From positions 44,823,001 through 44,887,000 of the forward strand of contig CM074858.1 in the NCBI GenBank assembly GCA_037501455.1: a stretch of DNA of 64,000 nucleotides. The letters run 5' to 3'. The number at the start of each line of letters is the position of its first letter. The stretch's first letter is position 1. The notes under the pieces are model-generated. The model did not search any database and had not been told where the DNA came from. It saw only the letters and a list, made by a program, of their open reading frames with translations. The stretch comes from Lantana camara (Eukaryota; Streptophyta; Magnoliopsida; Lamiales; Verbenaceae). Of this stretch, positions 4,055 to 63,758 are shown piece after piece. The position numbers and the translations under genes were made by a program.

Positions 4055-4236
4055 GCATGACACGGGGGTGCATAGTGGTTTGGGTTACTTTTCTGTACCG
4101 TGACACGGGGGTTTCACGGATTGCTTTGTATTGGTGACACGGGCGTGTCACCTTCTGTTCGCATGCATGTTGTCCGCTGTACCGTGACACGGGGGTGTCA
4201 CGGCTTAGTGTATTTTGGTGACACGGGCGTATCACC
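4055..4236. repeat. Palindrome cluster GTGACACGGGCGTGTCAC in S1
   Basis: Five units of GTGACACGGG(G/C)GTGTCAC(GG), some imperfect, lie at about 4055, 4099, 4132, 4182 and 4217. They alternate between a GGGGG and a GGGCG centre. The spacers are AT-rich with CATGCAT. Each unit could form a hairpin with a 6-7 bp stem or serve as a dyad-symmetric binding site. The cluster, including its spacers, is clearly related to that of Tekay-2 although the surrounding LTR is of the Tekay-1/S4 type. Confidence 0.85.
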
Positions 4237-4500
4237 CCCCTGTTTCATGCATCTTTGTTTTGCATGCATGGCTGTGCTTGCATGTGTTTTATACTCGGTT
4301 TATGGATAATCATGCTTTTATTTGACATTCATTAAATTGTTATTGCATGACCTATTGGTGCATGACTTTGCCATTCGTCATAATTGGTTCATTCGAGTCG
4401 AGTCTTATTTCACACTTGTCCTTGTTGCACAGATCACGGTCCCGGTTTCGTGGAGCCCGCTCCGTAGGGTGTTCTCTTGCTTTCTTTTGGTCGTTTGGTC

Positions 4501-4585
4501 AGGTGAGGTTTAAATTCTAGATAAATAGAACCCTTACAACCCCTATGTGACTATTTCGGCCAAAATGTATATATATATCTATAGT
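4501..4585 (+). promoter_or_regulatory. Conserved LTR block with possible TATA box (S1)
   Basis: The order GGTGAGGTTTAA, TAGAACCCTTACAACC, CTATGTG, TTTCGGCCAAAATG and a TATATATATA run recurs in the LTRs of Tekay-1 (11909-11985, 19351-19430), S2, S3, S4 and Tekay-3, and weakly in Tekay-2 (51157-51260). Such an island kept among otherwise diverged LTRs suggests a core promoter or RNA signal. The TATA role is inferred. AGGTGAGG also looks like a 5' splice site. Confidence 0.4.
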
Positions 4586-6006
4586 TTGCGAACTTTATGA
4601 TTTTCAAATGATTTGACAAATTTGATTGATTGATTGATGGATTGATTGTATTGGCGAGTCATTGATTTGCACTGTGGGCCCGAGGGTAGTGGCTCGAGCC
4701 AACCGGGAAAGCATGGGCTGACGGGTAACTCGAGTGCTATCCTCACCATTTGGGATGACCCCTGAACCCCCTAGGAGATTAGGGGAGGAAGGAGTTCCGG
4801 GCTTAGGGATTCATGTACCCTCTGCCCAGACTGATTGGATGGTGGGGCCTTGCAATCCCACCATCACCCGGAGGAAGAAGGATGGACTGAAACTGCTAAT
4901 TGTGCACCGTAATGAATTGCATGATCACCTAACTATTAAATAATTGATTGATTGATTGTACGCAGTTGGAGTAAGGTTGGAGAATTGCCCTCACTCGTCG
5001 GGCCACAATTGATTGTATTGAATTGATTAATTAATAAACTGAATTAGTTGTAACCTCGGGCGATTATATTTTTTGCTTATTAAATTGTATGGTTGTTTCC
5101 CGAAATTATTACCCGAGATTATAACCTGCATGTATGTGCGCTTATATTTATTTATAACCCCTCGCTCAGTCCATGTTAGACTGACACCTCGACTTTTCAG
5201 TTGTTTTGCAGGGCGTGCTAGGCGAGAATTAGGGTCTAGAGTGTCTTTAATTCGGGTCTAGCACACTTCATCTCACATTTTGTTCATGTACAGATACTCG
5301 ACCTATTTTGTAGCTTGCCTTGTTATTTATTTTTGAGATGATATTGTATTGATATGGAACGTTGGTATCTATTAGTAAATAAATAAATATGGTACCTATA
5401 AGTATTGAATGAATTATTGCTTCCGCTTCTATCTACTCTGCATTGTTGGTTTTGGTTTTACTTGAGGGTACCCGCCTAGCCTTGTGTTGTGTTTTTTTTT
5501 GTTGTCTCCCGTTCGCTATAACTTTGGTTCATGTATGGATTAACCATTTCATATGTGGATCGGGGCTATAGTGCGGGGGATGTGTCGCCTAGCATTCCGG
5601 GTGCTACATCCCTTGGGGCCTAACTGTCTCCTAACCCTGGGACATTTGGTTAAAAGGGACGTCCAAGTCTTTTTTTAGTTATGTAACCTCTAGTTTCAAA
5701 AGAATTGGGTATATAACCCTTTTTTTAATTTTATCTAATAAAATAAATGTTAAATTTAATTACTTTCCACGAGTACAATCGAGTGAACGATCTCAGAAAT
5801 CGCGCACTCGATTTTTTTCTTTTCTTTTTTTCTTTTATTTTCTTTTATTTTCTTTATTATTTTTATTCATCACGATCTTTATTAAATCTACTTTTAAATT
5901 TTTTCTTTATTTTCATTTATCACTTTTTCTTTTTTATTTATTTTCTTTTATTTTTCAAGATCCAGATTTGATTTATTCATTTTTTTTCTCAAGAAATCGC
6001 GTGCCC

Positions 6007-8713
6007 TGTAGCACTCGGAACGCCGAGATGCCACACCCCCGCACCATAAGTCTAGCTCACACACGAAATGGGTAGTCCATATATGAACCGGACTCATGGG
6101 GAACGGGTGACAGTAAAAAAAAAATGACACACTAACTAGGCGGGACTAACCCTCAATTAAATACGATCATGCATAATCAATAAAACGAAAGCATAATATA
6201 CATTCATGTCTTTAACATAATCCTTCCATCATTTACATAAATCCAATTCCAAAGATATCCAAATAGGTCATACTTAATACATAGGTACCAAGAGACATAA
6301 CAATACATATATGCATAAATAATGTACAACAAAATGAGGAAGACAAGTGCTAGACCCAAAGAACAAAAGACCTGACTCGATCCCGCCTAGCATGCAACCC
6401 CTGAAAAGTGTGAGGTGTCAGTCAACCAAAGACTGAGTGAGGGTTATAGATAAATATATGCGCACATACATGCAAGTTATAATATCGGGTAATAATTTTG
6501 GAAAATAACAATACAATTTAGTAAAATAAGAGATACTATCGCCCGAGGTTACAACTAATTCAATTTATCAATTTAATCAATTCAATACAATCAATTCGTG
6601 GCCCGGCGAGTGAGGGCATTCTCCAACCTTACTCCAATTAGTGAACAATACCATCTTTAGGTTTTATTCCAATAATTATCATACGATCATTAGTGCACAC
6701 TTAGCATTTCATGAACTCCTTCTTCCTCCGGTGATGGTGGGATTGCAAGGCCCAACCATCCACGAACGGTGTACGTCGGGAACATGACTCCCACGCACGG
6801 GATTTCTTCCTCCACCAAACCTCTTGGTGGATTCAGAGGTGATCCCAAAATTGGTGAGGATAGTGCAAGAGTTACCCGTCAGCCCTTGCTTCCCCGGTTG
6901 GCTCAATACACTACCCTCGGGCCCATGTGAACACGACATGCTTACTCGCTAAAACACGATCAATCACGATAACACAATTATTCAATAGATCACGAAATCA
7001 TTTGCAATCGGTAGAGATTTTGGGAAAGATATATACATATATATATATATATACATTTTGGCTGAAAACATCACGTAGGGTTGTAAGGGTTCTATATATC
7101 TAGTAATTAAACCTCACCTCTACCAAACAAAAGAAGCAAGGAAGCACCCTACGGAGCGTGTTCCTCGTCACCGGGACCGTGATCTGTGTACAAAGACAAG
7201 TGTACATGAAACTTGACTCTTATGAACCACTTAAGACGAACGGCAAAGTCATGGATCAGTATATCATGCAATAACAATCAAGGAATGTCAATTAGGAGCA
7301 TAATCATCAATAAACCAAGTATATATATCATATAATTCACATATGGGAGCCAAGAGAGTGAAAGGAAAGCAATAAGAAGGGTTTTGGTGAAGTTTGGCCA
7401 AAACCGACAATTCCCGAAAATGCACATGATGTGGAAAAATGGGAATATCTAAAGTTCTAGAAATTGGAATTGGGTTTTATTGGGAATGAAACTAGACAAG
7501 TAGACCTTTAAAATGGTATATGGCTCGTTTTCTAGTTCAAAGCGAGGAGAAAATGGCTTAAGCTTGAAGTTGGATGATTGTAGTTTGTCGGTAAAGAAGT
7601 GACACCAAAAAGAATTGATTATATCTCACAAATGGGAAAATATATTGAGGTGATTCCAATTGGATGTTATTCTAGACTTCAAGAGCTTTCCAACTAATCA
7701 AAAATCAGGTCATTTGGAGTTCGGATGAGGGAGTACCCGGCCGGGGAAAACTTGTGCAGAAACTTTCTGCACAAGCTCTACCCGCCCGGGGAGTTTTTCT
7801 TCATGAATTTACCGCCCGAGTAGAGGGTTTTCAGCTAAAAACTGAGAAGAAACAGGGGAAAACAGGGGAGAGAAGGAAAATGAAGCAAAGGCCACAACAA
7901 AACTTACCCAAAACACTCCAAAACAATCATATAACATGCATATAACTCATATATATCAATTAGGCACCATTTAATCCATAGAAACATACATAGATCATCA
8001 AGAAATCATCATGAAAACCCTATATATATACACATGCTTCCAACTTACATATGCATCAAGATATTCATGCAAGCTTCCACTCTCATCATCCTAATCATGC
8101 TCCTAACTCAAATATTGCAAGAATCCAACATCTAATCCATGAACCCTACTTCTATTCCAATCAAAAGAGTCAAACAAGTACATGTTATACCTTAAGATGA
8201 ACTAGAAATGGGATGAAATGGCAAGATGATGAAGATGATGATGCTCCTCAATTCCTTCAAAATATGTCTTGAAATGAGATGCAAATTCCTTCCTTCCCTT
8301 GGTGTTTTTACCGTTTCTTAGTGTGTGTGTGTGTGTGTAGTTCTTGTATGTAATGTAAGGAATGAAATGTATGAGATACAATGTATATGATATAATATAA
8401 GATATCTCCCACTAACCATGATGAATCACCACTAATTGCACTTGAGTCCCCAAGTTATTTAAGTGAATGCAATCAAGTTTCATTCTATAAAATATGAGTA
8501 ATTAACTCCAATTCATGTTATACAATTAAGTCATCAAATTTATGAAGTGATCAATTAAGGCATATAAGAGCAATTAGTCACATTAGTAATTAGTTCACGT
8601 AATTTTCACGTTGAAAAAGATTTCACATAAATTTATGAAAATAAAATGAATATAATGATATGAAAGTTATAATAATAACACATAATGCATAAACGGAAAA
8701 GAGGGGCGTTACA
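6007..8713 (-). mobile_element. Solo LTR S2, Tekay-type, minus strand
   Basis: On the plus strand it starts TGTAGCAC (the complement of the usual ...GTGCTACA end) and ends GGGGCGTTACA (the complement of TGTAACGCCCC); 2707 bp. The flanks TGCCC (6002-6006) and TGCGC (8714-8718) form a 5 bp target duplication with one mismatch. It interrupts a palindrome of TIR-B. The same landmarks as in S1 occur in reverse: 'gcgggactaaccc', 'ccttcttcctccggtgatgg', 'tttggctgaaaa' with a TATATA run (7022-7060), and 'aaacctcacct' (7110). Confidence 0.88.
7731..7825. repeat. Palindrome cluster TACCCG(C/G)CCGGGGA in S2
   Basis: Three units, TACCCGGCCGGGGA, TACCCGCCCGGGGA and TTACCGCCCGAGTAG, sit at about 7733, 7779 and 7809. 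Between the first two is a perfect inverted repeat (7751-7775, CTTGTGCAGAAA arms around one base). The position, about 0.9 kb from the LTR start, matches the palindrome clusters of the other LTRs, but the arms differ. Confidence 0.65.
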
Positions 8714-8823
8714 TGCGCGATTGCAGAAATCTCGTGCGCGATCACAGAAATTGAGTGAGCGATTTCATGAATCGAGTGAGCGATTGCAGAAATCGCGCAC
8801 GCGATTTCAAAAATCGCTCACTC
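8714..8823. repeat. Palindrome array of TIR-B, middle piece
   Basis: About five AATCGCGCACGCGATT- or AATCGAGTGAGCGATT-type units are stranded between two retrotransposon inserts. They continue the sequence cut at 6001-6006 and resume at 21536. Confidence 0.85.
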
Positions 8824-10408
8824 TGTAACACCCTTCACGTATGGGTGCCACACCCCCGCACTATAGCTTAGTCCACATACGAAATGAGTAATCCGTACAT
8901 GAACCAAACTATAGCGAACGGGTGACAAAGAAAAAGAACCAAGCTAGCTAGGCGGGACTAACCTCAACCGGAAAACCACAATGCAATAAAACGAGCGAAA
9001 GCTTAATAATTTTCAATATTAATTCAAAGTATTCAAGTCATACTATCTTCTAACTCCACATATCAAAACATTATCATCTTCCAAAATACATAACATGTCC
9101 AAAAGTAATAGATACAATACATGAACGTGTAGTGCTAGACTCGATTGACAACAGAACAGGACTCTGACTCCCGCCTAGCACGAACCTGCAAAACACTGAA
9201 AGGTTGAGGTGTCAGTCCAACACGGACTGAGCGAGGGGCATAAATAAATATTAACACAATTAACATGCAAGTTCTAATCCCGGGTAAGGTTTTTAATAAA
9301 GGAAACAATATAAGTTCAATATTAGAATAGATCTCGCCCGAGATTACAACTAGTCCATTTAATCAATACAAATGTTATCAATTCAATTCAATTCAATCAG
9401 TGGCCCGGTGAGTGAGGGCAATCTCCAACCTTACTTCAATTAGTGAACAATACCATCTTTAGGTTTTATTTCGATAATTATCATACGATCATTAGTGCAC
9501 ACTTAGCATTTTTACGAACTCCTTCTTCCTCCGGTGATGGTGGGATTGCAAGGCCCAACCATCCATGAACGGTGTGCGTCAGGAACATGACTCCCACGCA
9601 CGGGATTTCTTCCTCCACCAAACCTCCTGGTGGATTCAGAGGTGATCCCAAAATTGGTGAGGATAGCGCAAGAGTTACCCGTCAGCCCTTGCTTCCCCGG
9701 TTGGCTCAATACACTACCCTCGGGCCCATGTGAACACGACATGCTTACTCGCCAAAACACGATCAATCACGATAACACGAATATTCAATAGATCACGAAA
9801 TCATTTACAATCGGTAGAGATTTTGAGAAAGATATATACATATATATATATCTATATACATTTTGGCTGAAAACATCACGTAGGGTTGTAAGGGTTCTAT
9901 ATATCTAGTAATTAAACCTCACCTTTACCGAACAACCAAAAAGCAAGAGGAAACCCTAAGGAGCGTGCTCCTCGTCTCCCGGACCGTGATCTGTGCAACA
10001 AGGGACAAGTGTACATAAGATTCATCTCGTACGAACCATTTAAGACGAACAGCATGTTCAATTAGTGTCAATCATGCAATAATAACTAAGGAATGCTAAT
10101 TAAAAGAATAATTATCAATAACCATGTTTGTAACTCATACAAGTCACATACGGAAGCCAAAGAAGTGAAAAGAATGCAATATGAAAGGTTTTGGTGAAGT
10201 TTAGGAAAACTTGACAATTTTGGGAAAATGCACATGTTCTGGGAAAACTGTAATATCTTAAATTCTAGAAGTGGGAATTGAGTTTTGCTTGTTGGGTATG
10301 AAACTAGACACAAAGACCTCTCCAACGGTATATGACACGTTTTCTAATTCAAACCGAGGTGAAAATGGCGTAGGTTCGAAGTTGGATAAAATGCAGCTTC
10401 TGGAGGGT

Positions 10409-10424
10409 GGTCGCGGGCGCAACC
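10409..10424. repeat. Palindrome GGTCGCGGGCGCAACC in S3 (left of insert)
   Basis: One unit of the GGTCG-CGGGCG-CGACC type, with one mismatch. The remaining units, 20593-20608 (GGTCGCGGACGCGACC) and 20627-20641, are on the far side of Tekay-1, which inserted within this cluster. Confidence 0.7.
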
Positions 10425-10429
10425 AAAAT

Positions 10430-13069
10430 TGTAACGCCCCGGTTCCGGATGAACAGGTAAGCACACCACGTGTGCGTTTTGAGCGTAGGATTTATTTAAT
10501 TCTTTAATTTCATAATATATTCTTACGTGGCATTCACATTTTTATAAAATTCATTAAACATCCTTTATGTAAATTATTTGAATTCGTATCATTGAAAATA
10601 TTATTTCATGACACGGAAAATATTTATTGCATGAAACAATTACCAAATTGTCCCTAGTTGAATATTTCTTTAAATTCTAGGGACTTAATTGCATAATCTT
10701 TAAGGTCTTAATTGAGTATAATTTAAATTGTGGCAAATTTGATTTTATGACTTCATAAAACAAAGGATCAAATTGCAATTTAAACATTTCACACAAATCA
10801 ATGTTGGTGAATCACGTAATATACATTCCATGAGCTTCCTTGATCATTTCTATCAAAAAATTTCCCAACAACTTTGCTTCCTCATTCTCGGTTCTTCAAA
10901 AAAAAAAAGGGAAGAAGTGATTTTCATCTATTTTGTCAAGAATCTCAAGAAATTTGCCAAGCTTTGGGAGTTAATCATCATCATCATCTATATTCTCCAT
11001 TTCTTTCCATTTTAAGGTTGGTTTGGCATGAATCCATGATCTTTGATCATATATGTATAAGTTAGGGTTTGCGTTTGATGTGCTAGATGAATTAGTTGGG
11101 GTTGGAAGCATGGTTGGGTGATCATATCATGAATTATGGCATGAGTTATAGCATGAATTCTTGAATTTTTAGCATGAATGATCTAGTTTGATCATAAACA
11201 TGAATCTTAGAATCTTGATGATATATTGTGTTTTAAGTGTTTAAGTGTTAGTTTATCATCTTATGAACCTATATGCATGCATATTCCCAGAAAACTTTGG
11301 CTTTGATGATCAAAATGGAGTTTTGGGTGCTTGTTTGTTGCTTCCCGTAACCTTCCCCTGTTCTGCTCTGTTTTTCTTCAGTTGCAGAACTGGGAACGAC
11401 CGTTCCCAGCCTCAAGGCATTGTGGGAACGGGCGTTCCCCTCTTTTAAACTAAAACAAGGCGGCCGAGCGTGGGAACGGCCGTTCCCATTTTGGCCGTGG
11501 TGCCGAAAGGGCCGTTCCCAGCTAAGGCGCGTTTTTGAAAAAGAAATCGTTGGTGCGCTTTTGGGGATTACGGGAACGACCGTTCCCATTTTTCAAAGGG
11601 GACCGGAACGGTCGTTCCCACCTGACTTGCAGAACATAATTCACTGCATAAAATTACGAAAATGACCCCTCGATCCGATGACTTCTTTGACCCCGAATTG
11701 CTATAATATGTGTTATTATGAAGTGAAACAATATGTTATCATGCCACATTGCATTTTCATCGTCATCTCGATACATTTCCGCCGTTCGTCATATTTGGTC
11801 CATTTTAGGTCTTGTCTCATGTATACACGTCGTGTTTGCACAGGTCACGAAGGCTTGGACGAGGAGCAGGCTCAATAGAGTATATCCTTGTCATATTTTG
11901 CAAGAAAAGGTGAGGTTTTAGGTTATGTTTATAGAACCCTACCACCCTTATGTGCTATTTTCGGCCAAAACCTATTATAATTATAAACGTTTTCAAAGTT
12001 ATAAACATTTCAAGAAAGAAAGTATTGATTGTCATGATTTCAAGCAAGTTTGGCGAGTACATGATTGTACGTGGGCCCGAGGGTAATTCTTGAGCCAACC
12101 GGGAAAGCAAGGGCTGACGGGTAACTCCTGAATTATCCTCACATTGTTGGGATCACCCCCGAAGCCACTAGGAGATTAGTGGTGGAAGGAGTTCCGTGTC
12201 TAGAGGGTCATGTCCTCTACACACAACATGTCGTGGATAGTCGAGCTTTGCAAACTCGCTATCAACCGGAGGAAGAAGGAGACTGGGCATTAATCCGGCA
12301 TGTCGGGTTATCCTCGGGTTATCGCATGATTTCAAGCATGAAATTGTCTATGTGAGCACTAAATGGAATTGCATGATCATGTATTGAATTGATAAAGCAA
12401 GCACGTATTGTCACGTTTGGTGTAAAGGTTGGAGAATCGCCCATGCTCGCCGGGGTCACATGGTCATGAAATGTTAAGCTAAAATGTTAAAGTGATTGGT
12501 TGTAATCTCGGGCAAAGATTAAGTTTCTTGAATTATATTCCTTTTCATTTCCAAAGTCTTCACCCAAGGCTACACCTTGCATGCGATGTGTGTTATATAT
12601 ATTTATTGCCCCTCACTCAGTCTTCGGTAGACTGATACTTCACTTTTCAGGTACTTGAGCGCGTGGTCGTGCTTGGAGGGTGTCCAGTCGAGTTTTGCAT
12701 TTTCACGAGTCTAGTACCGTACCTTCATGTATAGCACTTTTAGTATCTTTTGTTATGATTAGTATTGTCACGTTTTGGATACTTAAGCATGTATAGATTA
12801 TTAAGAAATGATAATGTATTGATAGTTAAGTTGGTATCTATACATATCTATTCGGTAAATATGGTACCTATATGTATGAATGATTTTATTGCTTCCGCTT
12901 TCATTACCATGTTTGCTCTGGTTTTGTTGGGGAGAGTGTCCCGCCTAGCTCGTCATTTTTATTGTCACCCGTTCGCTATAGTTTTGGTTTATGTATGGAC
13001 TTTCCATTTCATACGTGGATCGAGGCTATAGTGCGGGGGATGTGGTGCCCTGGGGATTAGGGTGCTACA
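10430..13069 (+). repeat. Tekay-1 5' LTR
   Basis: TGTAACGCCCC...GGTGCTACA. The conserved GGTGAGGTTTTA, TAGAACCCTACCACCC and TTTTCGGCCAAAA block is at 11909-11985. A second conserved stretch (12070-12290) runs from 'gggcccgagggtaa' through CTAGGAGATTAG to 'ggaggaagaagg'. CTTTTCAGG at 12643-12651 and CCCGCCTAGC near 12950 are also shared. Short frames here (67-106 aa) follow the palindromes and are not genes. Confidence 0.95.
11391..11620. repeat. Palindrome cluster GGGAACGGCCGTTCCC, Tekay-1 5' LTR
   Basis: Six units lie at about 11392, 11424, 11472, 11503, 11572 and 11605: GGGAACGACCGTTCCC, GGGAACGGGCGTTCCC, GGGAACGGCCGTTCCC and variants. Spacers are about 16-55 bases. The spacers, and the lead-in 'cccctgttctgctctg', align with those of S4 and Tekay-3, showing common descent of the cluster. 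Confidence 0.9.
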
Positions 13070-13077
13070 TCTACAGG

Positions 13078-17873: not shown

Positions 17874-20512
17874 TGTAACGCCCCGGTTCCGGATGAACAG
17901 GTAAGCACGCCACGTGTGCGTTTTGAGCGTAGGATTTATTTAATTCTTTAATTTCATAATATATTCTTACGTGGCATTCACATTTTTATAAAATTCATTA
18001 AACATCCTTTATGTAAATTATTTGAATTCGTATCATTGAAAATATTATTTCATGACACGAAAAATATTTATTGCATGAAACAATTACCAAATTGTCCCTA
18101 GTTGAATATTTCTTTAAATTTTAGGGACTTAATTGCATAATCTTTAAGGACTTAATTGAGTATAATTTAAATTGTGGCATACTTGATTTCATGACTTCAT
18201 AAAACCAAGGATCAAATTGCAATTTAAACATTTCACACAAATCAATGTTGGTGAATCACGTAATATACATTCCATGAGCTTCCTTTATCATTTCTATCAA
18301 AAAATTTCCCAACAACTTTGCTTCCTCATTCTCGGTTCTTCAAAAAAAAAAGGGAAGAAGTGATTTTCATCTATTTTGTCAAGAATCTCAAGAAATTTGC
18401 CAAGCTTTGGGAGTTAATCATCATCATCATCTATATTCTCCATTTCTTTCCATTTTAAGGTTGGTTTGGCATAAATCCATGATCTTTGATCATATATGTA
18501 TAAGTTAGGGTTTGAGTTTGATGTGCTAGATGAATTAGTTGGGGTTGGAAGCATGGTTGGGTGATCATATCATGAATTATGGCATGAGTTATAGCTTGAA
18601 TTCTTGAATTTTTGGCATGAATGATCAAGTTTGATCATAAACATGAATCTTAGAATCTTGATGATATATTGTGTTTTAAGTGTTTAAGTGTTAGTTTATC
18701 ATCTTATGAACCTATATGCATGCATATTCCCAGAAAACTTTAGCTTTGATGATCAAAATGGAGTTTTGGGTGCTTGTTTGTTGCTTCCCGTAACCTTCCC
18801 CTGTTCTGCTCTGTTTTTCTTCAGTTGCAGAACTGGGAACGATCGTTCCCAGCCTCAAGGCATTGTGGGAACGGGCGTTCCCCTCTTTTAAACTAAAACA
18901 AGGTGGCCGAGCGTGGGAACGACCGTTCCTATTTTGGCCGTGGTGCCGGAAGGGCCGTTCCCAGCTAAGGCGCGTTTTTGAAAAAGAAATCGTTGGTGCA
19001 CTTTTGGGGATTACGGGAACGACCGTTCCCATTTTTCAAAGGGGACCGGAACGGCCGTTCCCACCTGACTTGCAGAACAAAATTCACTGCATAAAATTAC
19101 GAAAATGACCCCTCGATCCGACGGTTTCTTTGACCCCGAATTGCTATAATATGTGTTATTATGAAGTGAAACAACATGTTATCATGCCACATTGCATTTT
19201 CATCGTCATCTCGATACATTTCCGCCGTTCGTCATATTTGGTCCATTTTAGGTCTTGTCTCATGTATACCCGTCGTGTTTGCACAGGTCACGAAGGCTTG
19301 GACGAGGAGCAGGCTCAATAGAGTATATCCTTGTCATATTTTGCAAGAAAAGGTGAGGTTTTAGGTTATGTTTATAGAACCCTACCACCCTTATGTGCTA
19401 TTTTCGGCCAAAACCTATTGTAATTATAAACGTTTTCAAAGTTATAAACATTTCAAGAAAGAAAGTATTGATTGTCATGATTTCAAGCAAGTTTGGCGAG
19501 TACATGATTGCACGTGGGCCCGAGGGTAATTCTTGAGCCAACCGGGAAAGCAAGGGCTGACGGGTAACTCTTGAATTATCCTCACATTGTTGGGATCACC
19601 CCCGAAGCCACTAGGAGATTAGTGGTGGAAGGAGTTCCGTGTCTAGAGGGTCATGTCCTCTACACACAACATGTCGTGGATAGTCGAGCTTTGCAAACTC
19701 GCTATCAACCGGAGGAAGAAGGAGACTGGGGATTAATCCGGCATGTCAGGTTATCCTCGGGTTATCGCATGATTTCAAGCATGAAATTGTCTATGTGAGC
19801 ACTAAATGGAATTGTATGATCATGTATTGAATTGATAAAGCAAGCACGTATTGTCACGTTTGGTGTAAAGGTTGGAGAATCACCCCTGCTCGCCGGGGTC
19901 ACATGTTCATGAAATGTTAAGCTAAAATGTTAAAGTGATTGGTTGTAATCTCGGGCAAAGATTAAGTTTCTTGAATTATATTTCTTTTCATTTCCAAAGT
20001 CTTCACCCGAGGCTACACCTTGCATGCGATGTGTGTTATATATATTTATTGCCCCTCACTCAGTCTTCGGTAGACTGATACTTCACTTTTCAGGTACTTG
20101 AGCGCGTGGTCGTGCTAGGCGGGTGTCCAGTCGAGTTTTGCATTTTCACGAGTCTAGTACCGTACCTTCATGTATAGCACTTTTAGTATCTTTTGTTATG
20201 ATTATTATTGTCACGTTTTGGATACTTAAGCATGTATAGATTATTAAGAAATGATAATGTATTGATAGTTAAGTTGGTATCTATACATATCTATTCGGTA
20301 AATATGGTACCTATATGTATGAATGATTTTATTGCTTCCGCTTTCATTACCATGTTTTCTCTGGTTTTGTTGGGGAGAGTGTCCCGCCTAGCTCGTCATT
20401 TTTATTGTCACCCGTTCGCTATAGTTTTGGTTTATGTATGGACTTTCCATTTCATACGTGGATCGAGGCTATAGTGCGGGGGATGTGGTGCCCTGGGGAT
20501 TAGGGTGCTACA
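17874..20512 (+). repeat. Tekay-1 3' LTR
   Basis: Same as the 5' LTR apart from scattered substitutions (denser in the first 400 bases) and an A-run length change. It ends GGTGCTACA at 20512. The palindrome cluster is at 18834-19062. Confidence 0.95.
18834..19062. repeat. Palindrome cluster GGGAACGGCCGTTCCC, Tekay-1 3' LTR
   Basis: Six units in the same positions as in the 5' LTR. Substitutions since insertion have changed some units (GGGAACGATCGTTCCC here for GGGAACGACCGTTCCC there), so some are more and some less symmetric than their partners. Confidence 0.9.
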
Positions 20513-46379: not shown

Positions 46380-46383
<4 letters not shown>

Positions 46384-46434: not shown

Positions 46435-46436
<2 letters not shown>

Positions 46437-47384
46437 AAACACATATCAAAATTAGATCTATGAACCGGAATAGGTTTTGCAGACCAAATCATTTTAAAAC
46501 AACTTACATATACTTAGAATCATTTTTAAAACACTACTTCGATTCTTATATCCCATAATAGATCAAAACACATGCTCGGCGAGAACGAGCTTCCAACCTT
46601 ACTTCTCATAACAGAACAGAAACAGAAATCATAAATAAATCCATCCTCTCCTCCGATGATGGAAGAACCACGCGCGTAGTTCAAACCATCTAACTTAACT
46701 TAAACAAACCCATGCGGGGTAGCTAACCCACAACGTGTCCTCCCCGGATTTCACCCCAGAGGCATCAAAATATCACACCTTCCCTATCTCCCGAGGTCGC
46801 GTATGATATCTCAGATGGAGACTATGCACAGGCTTTACCTCGACAGCCCAACACCGTACCGAGGGCTCCTTACCCATGTCTCCTTGGATCCACAACCACA
46901 TATACAGAAACAAACATACTAATCTTTTATGGCAAAACTCGCTACAGAACTTAAACAAACAAGTTTTGCAAACTAGCTTACATATGCCTTCAAAATGCCA
47001 TTTTCAAAACAAGATTGGTTCACAAGGTCATAAACATATTATGTACAACACTTATTTACATATATATATAATATACGCGCATGCATGGTATGAAAACATC
47101 ACATAAAGGCTTTAGGTCGATATCTATACAAATCCTAAACCTTACCTTATGCTTGGCAAAAGTAGGAATGTGGAAAGACAAGCTTAGATCTCGGGCTCGT
47201 CAACGGGAACCTCCTCTGAAAAGAAAACACCAAAAGCCCAAGACTTATATGGACTAAAACGACGTACGGCAAAAGAAAAGAATGCACGAGATGTAATGAA
47301 TGTCACATATTCCAGCAAAATTCACATTAATCTAAAGAAATCAAACCGAGAAAGTTAGAAAACCCAAAAACGGACAGTGGCCTA

Positions 47385-47657
47385 TGAAACGGCCTTTTGG
47401 ATTCCAAGAAAAAAGTCCAAACGGGCGTTTCAAAAGCTACTGCAACGAAAAAGTAGTTCCCAAACGGGCGTTTGCAAAAACAAAGCAAACACCAAACGTC
47501 CGTGTGAAAAGCTACTTCCTCAACTCTGCTTCTCGAAATAGGCATTTGAAAAACTAGTTCAAACACCACACGCCCGTTTTCGAGACTCAAATTGAATTTT
47601 CCCGCTAATGCAAACGGCCGTTTGGGATTTTCAAAAGAGGACCAAATGGGTGTTTGC
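47385..47657. repeat. Palindrome cluster CAAACGGGCGTTTG in S5
   Basis: About eight units: GAAACGGCCTTTTGG (47386), CCAAACGGGCGTTTC (47417), CCAAACGGGCGTTTG (47459), CCAAACGTCCGTGTG (47492), a weak unit near 47535, CACACGCCCGTTTT (47567), CAAACGGCCGTTTGG (47611) and CCAAATGGGTGTTTG (47642). The centre CGGGCG/CGGCCG is as in other clusters, with arms (C)AAA/TTT(G). Confidence 0.85.
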
Positions 47658-48490
47658 CCTGGATTTGCAGAGCAGAAATGGCTCGGGAAAGCAGGTGAAT
47701 GAAGCAAACACCTAAAAATTCAACCAAAACTCAACCAAAACAAGCTAAACTCATACACAAACATAAGGATAATGCAAGAATCACAAATACATGCAAAAAC
47801 TTCAAGAAAAACGAGAATTAAAAGCATATTGATCAAATCCCATTTTGAAGGAATTCAAGCTCAAAGTTGAAATCATGCATTCAATTCATCCAACCGCCAA
47901 ACTCATGCAATAAATGTAACAAAGGCAACATAGGTAGCTCATAAATGAAATCAAGTACTCAAAGAATCCAACCAAAGTCACATAATCATCAAAATGGGTC
48001 AAACCCTTACTATTCATGAAGATGGATCAAATTCAAATGAAATCACTAAAAGAGAAGCAGATTAGGGTATGAAATCAAAGAGCATAATGTGAGGTTTTCG
48101 AAACTTACTCAAGTTCGAAGTTTGGCGAAGAAATGAGGAAGATATTGGTGATTGAAGCTTTAATCTAAGAAATGGAGAGTTGGCCTTAGCTTTCTTCTTC
48201 CTTGGCTTGAGATGAAATAACTTAAAATGAGGAAGAAAGGAGATTGGTTCAGCCTTTATGGGCTGGACTGGGTTCGGTTCACGGGTTCGGTTCAAGGTTT
48301 TTTCTGTTCGGTTTAATTTAGTTTGAATGGTTAAGGGTCCAACGAGCTAAAATCACATAATTCACGTAATTCACACAATTGAAATAATTCAAATAGATTC
48401 AAATAAGTTCAAATAATTAAATTAAAGCGCAATTAGCAATCAAATCACACATTTACTTGTACCAACTGTATACCAGGGTGTCACAGTAAC

Positions 48491-49539: not shown

Positions 49540-49544
49540 GTACT

Positions 49545-52313
49545 TGTGATGCCCCGATAATTCGGCCGTACAGGTATGACGTAAGTGTTTACCAAATTGC
49601 GCGAAATAATTATTTATATGTGATTTACATATTTAATTTTATTGTTTAATTATATAAATATGTATATATGTTGATTATGTTAACGATTATATCCTAAATT
49701 ATTTAATATTAAGTATTTTTTTGTGGATTCATATCAATGGATATTTATTGCATAAATCGAACGTGATTGCAACGTGAATTAACTTTCCGAACTTGATTTA
49801 ATTTCTTCTATGGCCTTACTTGCTCATTTTTATAGATTTTGGGACTTAATTGCATTGGACTTAATTGCTCATTTGTTATGGAATTGTGGCTAATTGCATG
49901 ACTTAGTAAATGGAAGGACTTAATAGCAAATTGGCCATTTCGTTCTCCTTCATAGCAGCTATCACGTACCATTTGCTTCTCATTTTCATATAAACATCAT
50001 ATACCTTTGTTCTTGCTTCCCTTGCCAACCGAGCAAAACCCTTACCAAAGTGTGGGGAGATTTCATCTTTCAAGCATCATTTTTGTGGGATTTATGATCA
50101 TTTAAGCATCATCAACATCATCTCTTCATCTTAGCTTCCATTTTTTTCGCATTTGAGGTAATTTTTGGAGCATGGATGATTTTCTTGAATTTATGGGATG
50201 AATAGGGCTTTGCATTTATTTTGTTAATGTGTGTATTTGTTATTGGAAATATGTTTAGGAACTTTAAGCTAAAGATTGATGCATGTCACTTGTTGATTAT
50301 GGACTTCGAGCATGATTGATGATATGGGTTTCATTTGATGAATTCTTGATGATCTATTGTGGAAATATGTGTTTTTATGAATTGTTATTGATCTATTTGT
50401 ATGCTAGTAGGTGTATATCATGATATTTGGGCATTTAAATGTGAGTTTGATCCATTTTGACTGCTTGAGTTTTGGTATGTTCTTGTCCTGCTGTTATACT
50501 CTGTTATTTTTTTTCTGCTACGTATTGTTGACACGGGCGTGTCAACTTTACCTTGTTCAGCGTGACATGGGGGTGCACGATGGTCTGGTTTTGTTGTACC
50601 GAGACATGGGGGTGTCATGGTTTGCCTTGTAATGGTGACACGGGCGTGTCACCTTCTGATTTCCTACTCCGTTGTACCGAGACACGAGTCAAGGGTTGCT
50701 TTGTAATGGTGACACGGGCGTGTCACCTTCTGCTTTCATGCATATTGTAGTTGCATGTTACTGTACGTGCATGTGTTATATATATATATATGTATTGGTT
50801 ATATATTAATTGTTATTTGACTTAATTGAATGTATTTAATTGTTATTCCCTAATTTTTAATTGCGATTGAATATGTGCTATGCTCCTATTTGAATTCTTG
50901 AATTAATTTGATTGAAAATGTGGGATTCTGAACTCGAATGATTGGTCGAATGACTTGATTATATGATTTAATTCCTTAATAATGCACCTGAACATTTTCA
51001 TAACATACTCTTATCTTTTACATATTCATATCATGATCATTGCACTGCCGAGCATCTTATTTGGTCATTTTGAGTCTCACTTTGCCTTTCTTGCACATAT
51101 TTTGATCCCGTTGGAGACGAGGCCGGTCAGTGAGGCTTTCGTGTCTTCTTTTGTTGGTTTAAGGTGGGTTTCTCTTCTATTTAGATAAAACGACCCAATA
51201 TATCTCTCTATGTGAAAGGTTTTAAGCCAAAGTAATATGATTATATATATATATTGAGTCTTTTCTCGAGTAAATGATTACAAACGTATAACCTTTCTTT
51301 TATGAATCCTACCTTATGTTTTGGCGAGATATGATTGATATGATTTTTATGAATTCACGGGCCCTGGAACTTAATACATGTGGCTATCCGGGGAGGCAAG
51401 GGTCGATGGTGATCCCATGTGTTAGTTCCAACCAATTACGGTGATACCGGACCTCGCTAGGAGATTAGTGGGGAATGGGAGCTGAGTGCCTTTGGGGGAT
51501 TCATGTACCCCCTCTGACCTATGTATGGACCGGTGGTCGGGTCCTGCAAACCTGTCCACCACTTGGAGGGAGAAGGTGTATATGTATGATTATGAATCAT
51601 ATGACTGTGCACTAATATGATATGTATGATAACCAATGAAACTACGAATATGAATACACAAGGTGTTGGTTCGAGATTATGCACGCTCACTCACCGAGCT
51701 TGAAACCCTATGATTAATTATGAATGAATAGGATCGTTATAAACCCGTAGATGTCTTTCCTTGTCTCACCCACTTGGGAAATCTTCTAAAAACTTCTTAT
51801 GGGTTTATAGCTTGCATGTACATGTTTAAATTCTGCCATAATTATATACTATGCCTGTTTTATACCCACCAGTCCCTTTTGGACTGAACCCGTTTCGTTT
51901 TCAGTGGTTTTTGTGCAGGTTAAGGAGTGCTAGGCGGGAATACAAGTCGTCTAGGTCTTGCATTAGTGTTTAGCACTCTTATTTTGTTACACTCGCACTC
52001 ATAATTCCCTTTTTGTATATGAGTATAGTTATGGAGCGTTATGTTGTCAGAACTTGAAATACTTGGCTGGATTATGTATATGAATGCTATTTTTGGAGCT
52101 TGAATGCTCATGGTACATATATATATATGATTGTTATTACTTCCGCTTTCTTGGTGTTGCTCTGATTTATGGTTTAAGGGTTAGTCCCGCCTAGCCTAGA
52201 GTGTGCGTGTGTGTCCCCGTTCGTCGTGACTTAGCTCGTGTGTGGATCATCCATTTCATATGCGGGTCGGGTCTCGGTGCGGGGGATGTATCACCTTGTG
52301 CTCGGGTGTTACA
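49545..52313 (+). repeat. Tekay-2 5' LTR
   Basis: Diverged from Tekay-1 LTRs but with corresponding landmarks: CAGGTATGACG near the start, AAGGTGGGTTTC (51161), TATGTG and AAGCCAAAG then TATATATATA (51210-51258), CTAGGAGATTAGTGG (51455), TTTTCAG (51898) and CCCGCCTAGC (52187). Confidence 0.93.
50528..50729. repeat. Palindrome cluster GTGACACGGGCGTGTCAC, Tekay-2 5' LTR
   Basis: Six units near 50529, 50561, 50600, 50634, 50680 (internally deleted, GAGACACGAGTC) and 50708. Related to the cluster of S1 including spacers. Confidence 0.88.
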
Positions 52314-52321
52314 TCCTTAAG

Positions 52322-57093: not shown

Positions 57094-58081
57094 TGTGATG
57101 CCTCGATAATTCGGCCGTACAGGTATGACGTAAGTGTTTACCAAGTTGCGCGAAATAATTATTTATACGTGCTTTACATATTTAATTTTATTGTTTAATT
57201 ATATAAATATGTATATATGTTGATTATGTTAACAATTATATCCTAAATTATTTAATACTAAGTATTTTTTTCTGGATTCATATCAATAGATATTTATTGC
57301 ATAAATCGAACCTGATTGCAACGTGAATTAACTTTCCGAACTTGATTGAATTTCTTCTATGGCCTTACTTGCTCATTTTTATAGATTTTGGGACTTAATT
57401 GCATTGGACTTAATTTCTCATTTGTTATGGAATTGTGGCTAATTGCATGACTTAATAAATGGAAGGACTTAATAGCAAATTGGCCATTTCTTTCTCCTTC
57501 ATAGCAGCTATCACGTACCATTTGCTTCTCATTTTCATATAAACATCATATACATTTGCTCTTGCTTCCCTTGCCAACCGAGCCAAACCCTTACCAAAGT
57601 GTGGGGAGATTTCATCTTTCAAGTATCATTTTTGTGGGATTTGTGATCATTCAAGCATCATCAACATCATCTCTTCATCTTAGCTTCCATTTTTTTTGCC
57701 TTTGAGGTAATTTTTGGAGCATGGATGATTTTCTTGAATTTATAGGATGAATAGGGCTTTGCATTGAATTGGTTAATGTGTGTATTTGTTATTGGAAATA
57801 TGTTTAGGAACTTTAAGCTAAAAATTGATGCATGTCACTTGTTGATTATGGACTTGGAGCATGATTGATGATATGGGTTTCATTCGATGAATTCTTGATG
57901 ATCTATTGTGGAAATATGTGTTTTTATGAATTGTTATTGATCAATTTGTATGCTAGTAGGTGTATATCATGATATTTGGGCATTTAAATGTGAGTTTGAT
58001 TCATTTTAAGTGCTTGAGTTTTGGTATGTTCTTGTCCTGCTGTCATACTCTGTTTTTTTTTTTTTTTTCTGCTGCGTACTG

Positions 58082-58284
58082 TTGACACGGGCGTGTCAAC
58101 TTTGCCTTGTTTAGCGTGACACGGGGGTGCACGATGGTCTGGTTTTGCTGTACCGAGACACGGGGGTGTTACGGTTTGCCTTGTAATGGTGACACGGGTG
58201 TGTCACCTTCTGATTTCCTACTCTGTTGTACCGAGACACGGGGGTGTCAAGGGTTGTTTGTAATGGTGACACGGGCGTGTCACC
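58082..58284. repeat. Palindrome cluster GTGACACGGGCGTGTCAC, Tekay-2 3' LTR
   Basis: Six units. The fifth (GAGACACGGGGGTGTC) is intact here, whereas it is deleted in the 5' LTR. Confidence 0.88.
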
Positions 58285-58332
58285 TTCTTCTTTCATGCAT
58301 ATTGTGGTTGCATGTTACTGTACGTGCATGTG

Positions 58333-58390
<58 letters not shown>

Positions 58391-58392
58391 TG
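58333..58392. repeat. (TA)n(TG)n microsatellite in Tekay-2 3' LTR
   Basis: About 24 TA units then GTGTGTG. The 5' LTR has only about six units (50778-50791), so it changed after insertion. Confidence 0.95.
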
Positions 58393-59919
58393 GTTATATA
58401 TTAATTGTTATTTGACTTAATTGAATGTATTTAATTGTTATTCCCTAATTTTTAATTGTGATTGAATATGTACTATGCTCCTATTTGAATTCTTGAATTA
58501 ATTTGATTGAAAATGTGGGATTATGAATTCGAATGATTGGTCGAATGACTTGATTATATGATTGAATTCCTTAATAGTACACATGAACATTTTCATAACA
58601 TACTCTTATCTTTTACATATTCATATCATGATCATTGCATTGTCGAGTGTCTTATTTGGTCATTTTGAGTCTCACTTTGCCTTTCTTGCACAGATTTTGA
58701 TCCCGTTGGAGACGAGGCCGGTCAGTGAGGCTTCCGTGTCTTCTTTTGTTGGTTTAAGGTGGGTTTCTCTTCTATTTAGATAAAACGACCCGATATATCT
58801 CTCTATGTGAAAGGTTTTAAGCCAAAGTAATATGATTATATATATATATATATATGGAGTATTTTCTCGAGTAAATGATTACAAATGTATAACCTTTCTT
58901 TTATGAATCCTACCTTATGTTTTGGCGAGATATGATTGATATGATTGTTATGAATTCACGGGCCCTGGAACTTAATACATGTGGCTATCCGGGGAGGCAA
59001 GGGCCGACGGTGATCCCATGTGTTAGTTCCAATCAATGACGGTGATACCGGACCTCGCTAGGTGATTAGTGGGGAATGGGAGCTGAGTGCCTTTGGGGGA
59101 TTCATGTACCCCCTCTGACCTATGTATGGACCGGTGGTGGGGTCCTGCAAACCTGTCCACCACTTGGAGGGAGAAGGTGTATATGTATGATTATGAATCG
59201 TATGACTGTGCACAAATATGATATGTATGATAACCAATGAAACTACAAATATAAATACACAAGGTGTTGGTTGGAGATTATGCACGCTCACTCGCCGAGC
59301 TTGAAACCCTATGATTAATTATGAATTAATATGATCGTTATAAACCCGTAGATGTCTTTCCTTGTCTCACCCACTTAGGAAATCTTCTAAAAACTTCTTA
59401 TGGGTTTATAGCTTGCATGTTTATGTTTAAATTCTGCCATAATTATATACTATGCCTGTTTTATACCCACCAGTCCCTTCTGGATTGAACCCGTTTCGTT
59501 TTCAGTGGTTTTTGTGCAGGTTAAGGAGTGCTAGGCGGGAATACAAGTCGTCTAGGTCTTGCATTAGTGTTTAGCACTCTTATTTTGTTACACTCGCACT
59601 CATAATTCCCTTTTTGTATATGAGTATAGTTATGGAGCGTTATGTTGTCAGAACTAGAAATACTTGGTTGGATTATGTATATGAATGCTATTTTTGGAGC
59701 TTGAATGCTCATGGTACATATATATATATGATTGTTATTACTTCCGCTTTCTTGGTGTTGCTCTGATTTATGGTTTAAGGGTTAGTCCCGCCTAGCCTAG
59801 AGTGTGCATGTGTGTCCCCGTTCGTCGTGACTTAGCTCGTGTGTGGATCATCCATTTCATATGCGGGTCGGGCCTCGGTGCGGGGGATGTTGCACCATGC
59901 GCTCGGGTGTTACAGTACT

Positions 59920-60493: not shown

Positions 60494-60813
60494 TGTAGCA
60501 CCCCAAACGGAAGGCGCCACATCCCCGCACTCAGACCCGAACCGCATATGAAATGGAAAATCCATACACGTGCCAGATCAGAGCGAACGGGGACTCACTC
60601 ACTCACTATGCTAGGTGGGAACTAAACTTTCGAAACCAATTAATAAAGTACAAGGAGAAAAGACAACTGCGAAGCAAAGCATGTAATCAATTCCCAATAT
60701 AAGCAATATATGGGTTCAACTAACATAATTACCTAGTCCCGAAATTCTAGCATATACCTAAATCATAAATACAATCATAAATACGGGTTCAAACTATCCC
60801 TAGAAGCCTGTCC

Positions 60814-62631
60814 CGAATCAATATCATAATAATTCATACGTTCATGGAAACATAACCAAATTACAATATGCATATGAACAGACTCCAACTCGATCAGGAG
60901 ACTCGACAGACTCGACTTCCCGCCTAGAGCTTCAAAACCTGCAAAAATCTGAAAACAAAGCCAGGTTTAGTCTATAGGAGACTGGTGGGTATAAAACAGG
61001 GTATATTCTAGTAATATCGCAGAAGTGAAACACCCACGCATGCAAGCTATAATCCCGTGCGAGGTTTTAAAAACATTTCCCAAGTGGATGAAAACAAAGA
61101 AAACAACGCCCAGGATTACAACCATTAATCTTATTCAATCATTACTTTCATATGGTCATTACGTGAGCCCGGCGAGAGGGTAAATTCTCCAACCTCCACC
61201 TCGTGTGTGCAATTATTCATTTATTCATTCATTAGTGATCATACAATCATTCATTCAGTCACAATCATGTGTTCATTCAATCGTTCGTTCAATCAATCAT
61301 TCATTCCACTTACACCTTTTTCCTCCGGGCGGTGGACGGGTTAGCAAGACCTGATCACCTCAATCATTGACAAGTGGGGTTTCATGAGTTCCCCAAAGGC
61401 GCTCAGCCCCCTTTTCTCACTAATCTCCTAGCGAGTTTCGGAATCTGTAATTTGGTTGGGACTAGCACATAGGATCACCGTCGGCCCTTGCCTCCCCGGA
61501 TAGCCATATGTACCAAGCCCCGGGCCCCAATATGTGTAATCAATCATTACTCGCCAAAACTTTAGGTAAGGTGTTCAGTAAAGAGAAGGGCTTAACGTTA
61601 AAATCATTGACTCCCCAAAAGACTCGATATATACATATAATAGTTTGGCTTAAAACATTACACATTGGGAATATATCGGGTCGTTTAACTAATAGAAGAG
61701 AAACCCACCTGTTACACCTTACCGAATCAATATCATAATAATTCATACGTTCATGGAAACATAACCAAATTACAATATGCATATGAACAGACTCCAACTC
61801 GATCAAGAGACTCGACAGACTCGACTTCCCGCCTAGAGCTTCAAAACCTGCAAAAATCTGAAAACAAAGCCAGGTTCAGTCTATAGGAGACTGGTGGGTA
61901 TCAAACAGGGTATATTCTAGTAATATCGCAGAAGTGAAACACCCACGCATGCAAGCTATAATCCGGTGCGAGGTTTTAAAAACATTTCCCAAGTGGATGA
62001 AAACAAAGAAAACAACGACCAGGATTACAACCATTAATCTTATTCAATCATTACTTTCATATGGTCATTACGTGAGCCCGGCAAGAGGGTAAATTCTCCA
62101 ACCTCCACCTCGTGTGTGCAATTATTCATTTATTCATTCATTAGTGATCATACAATCATTCATTCAGTCACAATCATGTGTTCATTCAATCGTTCGTTCA
62201 ATCAATCATTCATTACACTTACACCTTTTTCCTCCGGGCGGTGGACGAGTTAGCAAGACCTGACCACCTCAATCATTGACAAGTGGGGTTTCATGAGTTC
62301 CCCAAAGGCGCTCAGCCCCCTTTTCTCGCTAATCTCCTAGCGAGTTTCGGAATCTGTAATTTGGTTGGGACTAGCACATAGGATCACCGTCGGCCCTTAC
62401 CTCCCCGGATAGCCATATGTACCAAGCCCCGGGCCCCAATATGTGTAATCAATCATTACTCGCCAAAACTTTAGGTAAGGTGTTCAGTAAAGAGAAGGGC
62501 TTAACGTTAAAATCATTGACTCCCCAAAAGACTCGATATATACATATAATAGTTTGGCTTAAAACATTACACATTGGGAATATATCGGGTCGTTTAACTA
62601 ATAGAAGAGAAACCCACCTGTTACACCTTAC
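60814..62631. repeat. 909 bp tandem duplication inside the LTR
   Basis: Unit 1 is 60814-61722 and unit 2 is 61723-62631. The repeat starts at CCGAATCAATATCATAATAA in both units and ends at 'gttacacctta'. Only a few substitutions were noticed (for example 'gatcagg'/'gatcaag', 'cccgtgcg'/'ccggtgcg'), so the duplication is recent. The frame of 76-81 codons repeated at 61508 and 62417 is a by-product. Confidence 0.93.
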
Positions 62632-63249
62632 CGAACGATACCAAGAGAAAAAGAATACTTGAAAAAGGTCTAAGAGCCCGGCAAGTCTCCGCCCTGGAGA
62701 AAACTGTACAAAAGACAACACGGTGCAGTCGTGAGACTCAAGACTCCAAATGAACCATATATGACGCACGACAATGCATTAAATTGATGTAAGATGCATA
62801 AAAAGTATAAGTTATGTTATGAGGTCATATAATCAAGTAATTCATTCAAAACGTTCAATACAAGGTGGTTTCATATTCACACGTTTCATATCTTTCATAT
62901 TTTGCATCAATTCGAGCCATAAGCTTTAAACAATAATTATAACACATGTTATAACATGTTTTCAATACATTCAAGTCATAACGAAGCAAGAAGTTATCAT
63001 ATTAAGGAAACAATTAGGGCAACAGTTCATGCATCCACGTAGGGGAGCAATTGGAGCATATCTTGTCATATAAGCGTATAAAATCACCGAAATTACACAA
63101 CCTTAATGAAACATGTAACACATAATTCATGAAGTTAACAATACATTCATATCATATAATGAGCAAAGAAATATCAAACAAGGTATACAATAATTTAATC
63201 CTCAAATTTCATACAAAATCAATGCACATCATAAATCATATTTATAAAT

Positions 63250-63540
63250 TAGAATTAACAATTTAAACATTTAGTATGCATATATACGTACACAAAATAA
63301 ATTCTTGCATGCATATAATATATATATACACATACAATATCCAATATATATATATATAACATGCAAACACGTACATAGTATATATATATATATATATTCC
63401 TACATATATTAAACATCAATATACAATATATATATATATACGTATTCATGAATATATTAAATATACACACATATATGTAATGTTTAATACATATATACAC
63501 ACACTACATGCATATTACATAATAAATATAAATATACTTC
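63250..63540. repeat. AT/CA-rich low-complexity tract
   Basis: Alternating TATATA and ACACAC runs (for example 63341-63358, 63380-63397, 63425-63441). No gene. Confidence 0.85.
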
Positions 63541-63613
63541 CAATTACTAGAATAACAAAACCATGCATTCATGCACAAAGAGATTGAATTAAACACACAA
63601 CTCAAGCACAAAA

Positions 63614-63758
63614 CCGGAGTGGGTAACGGGGTTTACTCATTCCAAAGCAAGAAGAGGTAACCCCCATTAAGGGGGTCAGTAGCTCCAGCCTTAAGGCAGC
63701 CATGGAGGTAACGGGCGTTACCTCCACAAGGCAATTCCGCGGTAACACCCATTACCGG
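63614..63758. repeat. Palindrome cluster GGTAACGGGCGTTACC
   Basis: Four units: GGGTAACGGGGTTTACTC (about 63620), GAGGTAACCCCCATTA (63655), a perfect 22 bp palindrome with arms GGAGGTAA around CGGGCG (63704-63725), and GGTAACACCCATTACC (63741). Same centre and relative place as the other clusters, with new arms. Confidence 0.8.

Follow-up and report, generated by a model that had tools for sequence, protein, structure and literature searches.

The long terminal repeats (LTRs) of Ty3/gypsy retrotransposons in a 64,000 bp stretch of Lantana camara DNA (C4:44823001-44887000, GenBank contig CM074858.1; hereafter the window) carry clusters of short palindromic units, in each of which a conserved CG..CG centre lies between two matched arms whose sequence differs between LTRs. 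On balance, we favour the view that the clusters are arrays of dyad-symmetric protein-binding sites, similar to the RM boxes of Sireviruses but located in Ty3/gypsy elements, and that they are exchanged as cassettes. Switching between arm types looks to be mainly replacement of a cassette and not paired point changes within it, and a swap would probably change which cell factor reads the sites.

Matched-arm units in the window and genome-wide

Self-alignment and protein family matches show the window to be a nest of long-LTR Ty3/gypsy elements. Its reading frames match Ty3_capsid, SH3_Tf2-1 and, weakly, the chromodomain family PF00385 (two matches at E 5.7e-4 and 8.4e-5, neither of which reaches the curated cut-off), which points to Ty3/gypsy and not to the Ty1/copia Sireviruses. 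The clusters are distributed over nine LTR families or solo LTRs (A, B, C, Tekay-1, D, E, S4, Tekay-3, and F; Table 1); the letters are assigned here and 'Tekay' is a label from the original prediction, a reading of this DNA that first described the clusters. When cores with complementary arms on either side were scanned for, every LTR named there yielded units, and in the eight window LTRs measured they begin 0.73-1.17 kb from the LTR start, in agreement with the distance proposed. The TACC cluster of LTR B is weak, with imperfect units and none returned by stricter unit finders; Tekay-1 interrupts cluster C, and some units of S4 are half-matched.

At least four of five arm positions are complementary in 20 of the 30 CGGSCG cores in the window (0.47 expected), and seven other core patterns together give 0/80. 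Elsewhere in the assembly (twenty 10-kb stretches at set places, 200 kb on five contigs) matched arms flank 9 of 53 CGGSCG cores (0.83 expected) and 12 of 347 sites of the seven control patterns (5.4 expected), which indicates that symmetry is also slightly in excess in general. The clusters are thus real, far from chance, and genome-wide. Searches of the whole assembly (1.27 Gb in 378 contigs) gave at least 34493/34565 forward/reverse strand matches for GGAACGGSCGTTCC, 20636/20428 for GGNAACGGSCGTTNCC, 1518/1494 for GTACCCGGSCGGGTAC, 2486/2219 for GGTAACGGSCGTTACC, and 4436/4520 for GTGACACGGSCGTGTCAC, with every fully palindromic site contributing to both strand counts; the corresponding reversed controls gave 1/1, 1/2, 0/0, 0/0, and 0/0. 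The LTR pattern had no matches in viral contig and genome contig collections, and a piece of the reverse transcriptase (RT) found no confirmed relative among viral contigs.

The GGGAA and GGTAA arms are one base pair apart, and a half-swapped site is therefore a direct test of whether arms are kept matched. GGGAA/TTACC sites have 25/25 strand matches and thus occupy 50 places (each counts once), compared with thousands of matched sites. Twelve of the 50 were fetched, ten among GGGAA-type units and two among GGTAA-type units, and all twelve are single odd units in one-type clusters, not transitions. Among 100 GGNAACGGSCGTTNCC matches listed, 89 are flanked by GGG/CCC, eight by GGT/ACC, one by GGT/GCC, and two (one site) by GGA/CCC, with no half-swap to the other type. 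GTGACA sites with the asymmetric CGGGCG core also occur in opposite orientation 152-154 bp apart (e.g. C1:6217908-6218078); eight cases are present among the matches listed, and some family evidently has sites facing each other.

Architecture of the units

The original prediction described the centre as nearly always CGGGCG or CGGCCG. This is correct for the outer CG..CG positions, which are 85.6% (GTCG) and 78.9% (GGAA) identical within type, but the two middle bases vary in both types with spacer-like identities (61.2% and 70.7%, respectively); all GTGACA matches listed have a CGGGCG core. The arms are matched, as predicted, and are conserved better than the spacers within a type (about 86-91% versus 62-72%). 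In the GTCG and GGAA types, to which this comparison applies (with one of the two Tekay-1 LTRs), arm identities are 85.9% and 90.9%, spacer identities 71.8% and 62.2%, and flanks 56-72%. CpG-rich arms are expected to decay faster. In loci with at least three units the CpG observed/expected ratio (o/e) is 1.16 in clusters and 0.69 outside, with GC contents of 0.511 and 0.359.

Distances between adjacent units are quantised. Sixty-seven of 132 are 31-34 bp, none is below 31 bp and none is 35-40 bp; 15 are 41-45 bp, nine are 47-51 bp, two are 52-67 bp, 25 are 72-79 bp, and the rest are longer or between these. These counts, and those of arm mismatches and of arm changes across eight types below, take one LTR each of Tekay-1 and Tekay-3 and leave out F, L055 (CGAA), and the four cluster-less loci. 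The 31-34 bp class is present in all eight types counted, and F (34-51-34) is a ninth. Three helical turns of DNA span about 31.5 bp, such that two dimers bound at ~32 bp would face the same side.

Cluster types and the LTR backbone

A conserved, exon-2-like block downstream of the cluster is present at 4126+4172 or more places genome-wide (reversed control, none). From 100 places listed, all on contig C1, we took 40 with varied block sequence, so that the sample is not random. Its arm words are GTCG, TACC, GGAA, GTGACA, GACA, TCCA, RTCC, CAAA, and CGAA (one unit only). Together with the window LTRs this gives 51 rows with 11 labels including 'none', assigned by hand from the unit lists; the types of L032, L039, L044, and L055 depend on one or few, partly decayed, units. 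Four of the 40 (L034, L038, L050, and L060) have no palindromes in the fetched stretch, and L034, L050, and L060 are nearly identical in flank and have perhaps spread recently.

Arm type is incongruent with the tree of the flanks (263 columns, 51 rows), which requires 17 type changes where ten is the least possible and shuffled labels average 33.2. Flank sisters of unlike type include L025 (GACA) with L056 (TACC), supported at 100/97, and L027 (GTCG) with L062 (GACA), supported at 100/99. In an approximately unbiased (AU) test set up after the tree had been seen (48 rows, with the long S4, F, and L033 left out, and 15 changes), a single clade is rejected for GTGACA, GACA, GGAA, GTCG, and TACC (p-AU 0.011, 0.0004, 0.0001, 0.017, and 4e-6). 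Because of this incongruence whole-cassette exchange looks like the main process, and the usual event seems to be replacement of the entire cassette by recombination.

Individual LTRs point the same way. L025 and L062 are 96-97% identical in two cluster windows, whereas 14 of the 16 other windows are 76-92% identical. The flanks of LTR A are 70% and 74% identical to those of B and 59-61% to Tekay-3, and cluster A is 71.7-76.3% identical to that of Tekay-3. In L025 and L056, the closest pair of unlike type, arms and spacers are both replaced: in the TACC/GACA alignment the flank homology runs up to the last unit, whose core is kept, and from there both change, with unit distances of 31-32 bp in both types. 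RT relatedness does not predict arm type in the small sample of nine sequences compared (three from the window and six of seven fetched, L079 giving no match), in which RT was assigned to LTR by distance; the RT of the L035 element (GTGACA) is 72.3% identical to that of Tekay-3, with the same arms, and 83.6-84.9% to those of two GTCG elements.

Proposed paired arm changes

The original prediction proposed that the clusters are homologous and that all arms in a cluster were replaced by paired changes as the specificity of a partner shifted. The matched arms, the constraint on them, and the rarity of half-swapped sites agree with that mechanism, but paired change of each unit inside a conserved cluster does not, because covariation within types is no greater than in shuffles. 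In 13 of the 14 GTCG loci (all but C) standard pairs make up 88.1% of the total and 88.6% in shuffles, two pairs are changed on both sides (shuffle mean 1.8), and the covariation score is reached by 219 of 500 shuffles. Nor does any arm position differ from within-type shuffles (none at p<0.1) when 78 distinct units from eight types are compared. An apparent excess of changes on both sides (19 versus 8 expected, 14 of them paired) was discarded: 14 of the 19 fall on the outermost position of the arm, some of them in orthologous units, and the excess is not seen against within-type shuffles.

Spacers were also said to align between families. This is clear for LTRs with the same arms (Tekay-1, D, and E with GGGAA; A and Tekay-3 with GTGACA) and only hinted at for unlike arms; the lead-in (CCCCTGTT..) is common to several LTRs as described, but is flanking sequence. 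General spacer homology between unlike types was rejected, as the scores are near noise with uncorrected z-values (no units being found in L044 and F), and the best-pair direct alignments do not beat shuffles. Thus L059/S4 scores 43.5 against a null maximum of 54.5, and L062 with L036, L033, L046, and D is each time under its own null maximum. There are nonetheless more specific similarities. When a spacer of Tekay-1 (enclosed unit masked, but five arm bases at the start of the query left in) was compared with 4418 segments, the best matches were its GGGAA relatives, Tekay-1 and E, followed by S4 (CAAA) with a score of 35, ahead of the next GGGAA loci (32) and others (31), the S4 match being inverted relative to the LTR. 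Spacer words of at least 7 bases are common to 22 of 28 pairs of eight types (set GACA2, overlapping GTGACA, left out), six of which are reached by at most one of 100 shuffles. One such word, CCTAGTTCATT, is common to GACA and GGGAA within a 31-32 bp spacer (0 of 100 shuffles), but was also found once away from any cluster (L010).

A further case is L062 (GACA) and L063 (CAAA). A masked L062 query scores 51 with L063 and 36 with the next unrelated segment among 4498, and the first unit of each is at the same place, between the matching lead-in and the 9-base word ACCCTAGTT, with different arms; without the lead-in the score is 18, reached by 294 of 500 shuffles. Because L062 has a matched unit here (ACA/TGT) and L063 a half-matched one (AAA/TGT), it seems that one arm was altered in place, without a paired change in the other. 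Half-matched units of the CAAA clusters (47415-47665 and L063) combine left CACA with right TTTGG or left CCAAA with right TGTGG and may be intermediates with transitional arms.

Position in the LTR

An (A/G)AG|GT site, usually in a context like TTTCAAG|GTATAA, is present 5' of the cluster in 17/17 long pieces, and AG is kept at an aligned TTGCACAG-like site on the 3' side in 43 of 51 rows by eye (22/51 with a narrower pattern). This suggests that the cluster may lie within a leader intron.

Weighing the explanations

Unit-wise paired change is in our view unlikely. It is favoured by the L062/L063 correspondence, by the near-identical 34-50-34 and 34-51-34 layouts of A (GTGACA) and F (GGTAA), by the S4 ranking and the shared spacer words, and by odd units such as a GGTAG/CTACC unit in the GGTCG cluster of L030 and the half-matched units of S4 and L063. 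Set against these are the missing covariation, the replacement of spacers as well as arms between L025 and L056, the isolated nature of the fetched half-swaps, and a masked F query that had neither A nor Tekay-3 in its top 25. That the units act as RNA hairpins in LTR transcripts, with a variable stem and a conserved loop, for example in packaging or as small-RNA triggers, we judge distinctly unlikely. Freely varying matched stems around a conserved centre would be expected of such hairpins, and with splice-like sites on both sides the units may be present in RNA; however, one-sided arm mismatches comprise 22 G-T and 34 A-C, so that the sense strand shows no evidence of wobble tolerance, and neither compensatory changes nor G-U tolerance were found in the stems. 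Fold z-scores of six 150-nt stretches from four window clusters range from -1.4 to -5.4, but only Tekay-1 is below -2.5, several predicted folds pair units with their neighbours instead of locally, and the clusters keep their CpG.

A functionless minisatellite, in which symmetric units were multiplied by local duplication, is very improbable. Cluster A does have a repeat period of 84 bp (34+50) and one-type clusters have related spacers, but this process does not account for arms kept better than spacers, quantised spacing across types with unlike spacers, the CpG excess, or the similar location in diverged LTRs. We give almost no weight to a VANDAL/VANC-like system, named by the original prediction as an analogy, in which a protein encoded by the element binds the sites and removes silencing, since arm type does not follow RT in the nine sequences compared; the short repeated non-coding motifs that differ between relatives (PMC5735166) are a point of likeness, but the word stem 'palindrom' is absent from the main text of that report. 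Of the 11 open frames of at least 150 aa, counted from stop to stop, seven were searched. One has no match and the matches of the other six are confined to gag, protease, RT, RNase H, integrase, or chromodomain families, so that no additional domain (a VANC-like binding protein) was found in these seven, shorter frames not being searched.

Several observations also weigh against protein-site arrays exchanged as cassettes. Many of the spacings stem from related copies and are not independent, and the 47-51 bp distances do not fit whole helical turns. The splice-like signals imply that the cluster may be transcribed and spliced out and not be upstream of the promoter, and the existence of cluster-less LTRs that the cassette may not be strictly needed. 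In L062/L063 one unit seems to have changed in situ, and L025/L062 are also 95-98% identical in two windows upstream; LTRs are thus mosaic elsewhere too, so that exchange is not restricted to the cluster. Few elements enter the RT comparison, its branch support is weak (94/95), and Tekay-3 is on a long branch. A conserved centre with free matched arms is also the signature of a fixed-loop hairpin.

A model for the clusters and its relation to known systems

The reading that we favour, protein-site arrays moved as cassettes, would work as follows. Each cluster would be a cassette with a regulatory role, in which CpG-rich sites of dyad symmetry (variable arm, CG..CG, matched arm) are arrayed, often ~32 bp or roughly three helical turns apart. 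Host dimeric factors would bind the sites as double-stranded DNA with a specificity set by the arms, and binding would control transcription of the element or protect it from silencing. Recombination during reverse transcription could then move cassettes between LTR backbones. More speculatively, the cassettes could be interchangeable addresses: the arm word would select one among several host dimeric factors (activators or anti-silencers), CG..CG and the 32-bp pairing would form the chassis, and recombination would change the address in one step, letting the element escape silencing or reach a new expression niche. Such a system would have evolved in parallel to that of the Sireviruses.

In function the clusters would be most like the Sirevirus RM boxes, but they are in another superfamily and their constant and variable parts are arranged differently. 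The RM boxes (Bousios et al. 2010, PMC2829016) are clustered palindromic boxes of Ty1/copia elements with a CGG-CCG signature and family-specific sequence, are multi-copy in each LTR, and form CpG islands; those authors suggest regulation by nuclear factors. The Lantana units are likewise palindromic, clustered, type-varying, and CpG-rich (o/e 1.16), but they belong to Ty3/gypsy elements with (weakly matched) chromodomains. In most Sirevirus boxes CGG and CCG flank variable inner bases, whereas the units here are constant at a central CG..CG and variable in the outer arms; the Sirevirus boxes are upstream of the TATA box, whereas splice-like signals flank the clusters here. Neither a 32-bp spacing rule nor an exchange of cassettes between backbones appears in the parts of PMC2829016 consulted. 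Palindromes in maize Sirevirus LTRs are small-RNA hotspots (Bousios et al. 2016, as cited in PMC5311732 and PMC10760457) and similarly cluster in an LTR regulatory region of high sequence variability.

In the VANDAL/VANC anti-silencing system of Arabidopsis, short repeated non-coding target motifs diverge between relatives (PMC5735166, PMC10398659), but the motifs are described as tandem repeats and the partner is encoded by the element, whereas the arm type here is independent of the RT gene in the elements compared. Frequent recombination during replication has been described within one LTR retrotransposon family, where it yields mosaic elements (Sanchez et al. 2017, PMC5668417); the LTRs described here are likewise mosaic, but the piece that seems to be exchanged is a discrete cassette of symmetric sites and the backbones are more diverged. 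Our literature search found no title or abstract start reporting such clusters in this lineage.

Changes of regulatory specificity in retrotransposons are poorly known. Here some ten arm words share one chassis within a single genome (for four of them, genome-wide counts run to thousands of strand matches each), and close LTR relatives differ in cassette, so that the mapping of arm words to factors is directly testable, as is whether a cassette change precedes a burst. The clusters indicate that symmetric CpG-rich LTR boxes are not confined to Sireviruses.

Other features of the window

Table 1. LTRs and palindrome clusters in the window (TSD, target site duplication)
Feature	Coordinates	Strand	Evidence
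Solo LTR A (S1 of the original prediction), 5-bp TSD TCCCT	3369..5610	+	self-alignment, TSD read
Cluster A, arms GTGACA/TGTCAC, cores 4106, 4140, 4190, 4224 (34-50-34 bp)	4055..4245	+	core-arm scan
LTR B	6004..8715	-	self-alignment, ends read
Cluster B, imperfect TACC/GGTA-type units around CGGGCG/CGGCCG	7735..7820	-	core-arm scan, alignment
LTR C 3' part, interrupted by Tekay-1	8824..10437	-	self-alignment, ends read
Cluster C unit, GGTCG/CGACC type, Tekay-1 (TSD AAAAT) inserted adjacent	10406..10430	-	core-arm scan, TSD read
Tekay-1 5' LTR	10433..13071	+	self-alignment
Tekay-1 cluster, arms GGGAA/TTCCC, five to six units, several 32 bp apart	11389..11625	+	core-arm scan, unit finder
Tekay-1 3' LTR	17877..20516	+	self-alignment
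Tekay-1 cluster, 3' LTR copy	18833..19068	+	core-arm scan
LTR C 5' part	20517..21533	-	self-alignment, ends read
Cluster C, two more GGTCG/CGACC units	20590..20645	-	core-arm scan
LTR D 3' part, interrupted by E	37391..39113	-	self-alignment, ends read
Cluster D, arms GGGAA/TTCCC	38765..39010	-	core-arm scan
Solo LTR E, TSD TGAAG	39113..41747	+	self-alignment, TSD read
Cluster E, arms GGGAA/TTCCC	40008..40242	+	core-arm scan, unit finder
LTR D 5' part	41748..42560	-	self-alignment, ends read
Solo LTR S4, TSD GTAAC	45885..48484	-	ends read, TSD read
Cluster S4, arms CAAA/TTTG, some units half-matched	47415..47665	-	core-arm scan
Tekay-3 5' LTR	49547..52316	+	self-alignment
Tekay-3 cluster, arms GTGACA/TGTCAC	50526..50735	+	core-arm scan
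Tekay-3 3' LTR	57096..59917	+	self-alignment
Tekay-3 cluster, 3' LTR copy	58080..58292	+	core-arm scan
LTR F, runs off window	60494..64000	-	self-alignment
Cluster F, arms GGTAA/TTACC, cores 63627, 63661, 63712, 63746 (34-51-34 bp)	63622..63757	-	sequence read

Two of the four units of cluster F are imperfect in their arms, and its layout is close to that of cluster A. LTR F also contains a 909-bp tandem duplication (60813-62635) whose copies are 98.8% identical by self-alignment. Insertions near palindrome clusters were seen in two cases only, Tekay-1 (10433) next to one of the cluster C units, and the solo LTR E (39113) ~110 bp from cluster D.

Other palindromes are present outside these LTRs. 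A non-Tekay stretch with repeats at 755-1186 contains six copies of the palindrome TCTAGTACTAGA, an array with a different centre. Palindromes like GAAATCGCG(T/C)(G/A)CGCGATTTC are repeated at 2244-2725, 5797-6000, 8790-8815, and 21544-21710, partly 42 or 21 bp apart, in repeats flanking the LTRs; as a guess, these are perhaps the subterminal repeats of a DNA transposon.

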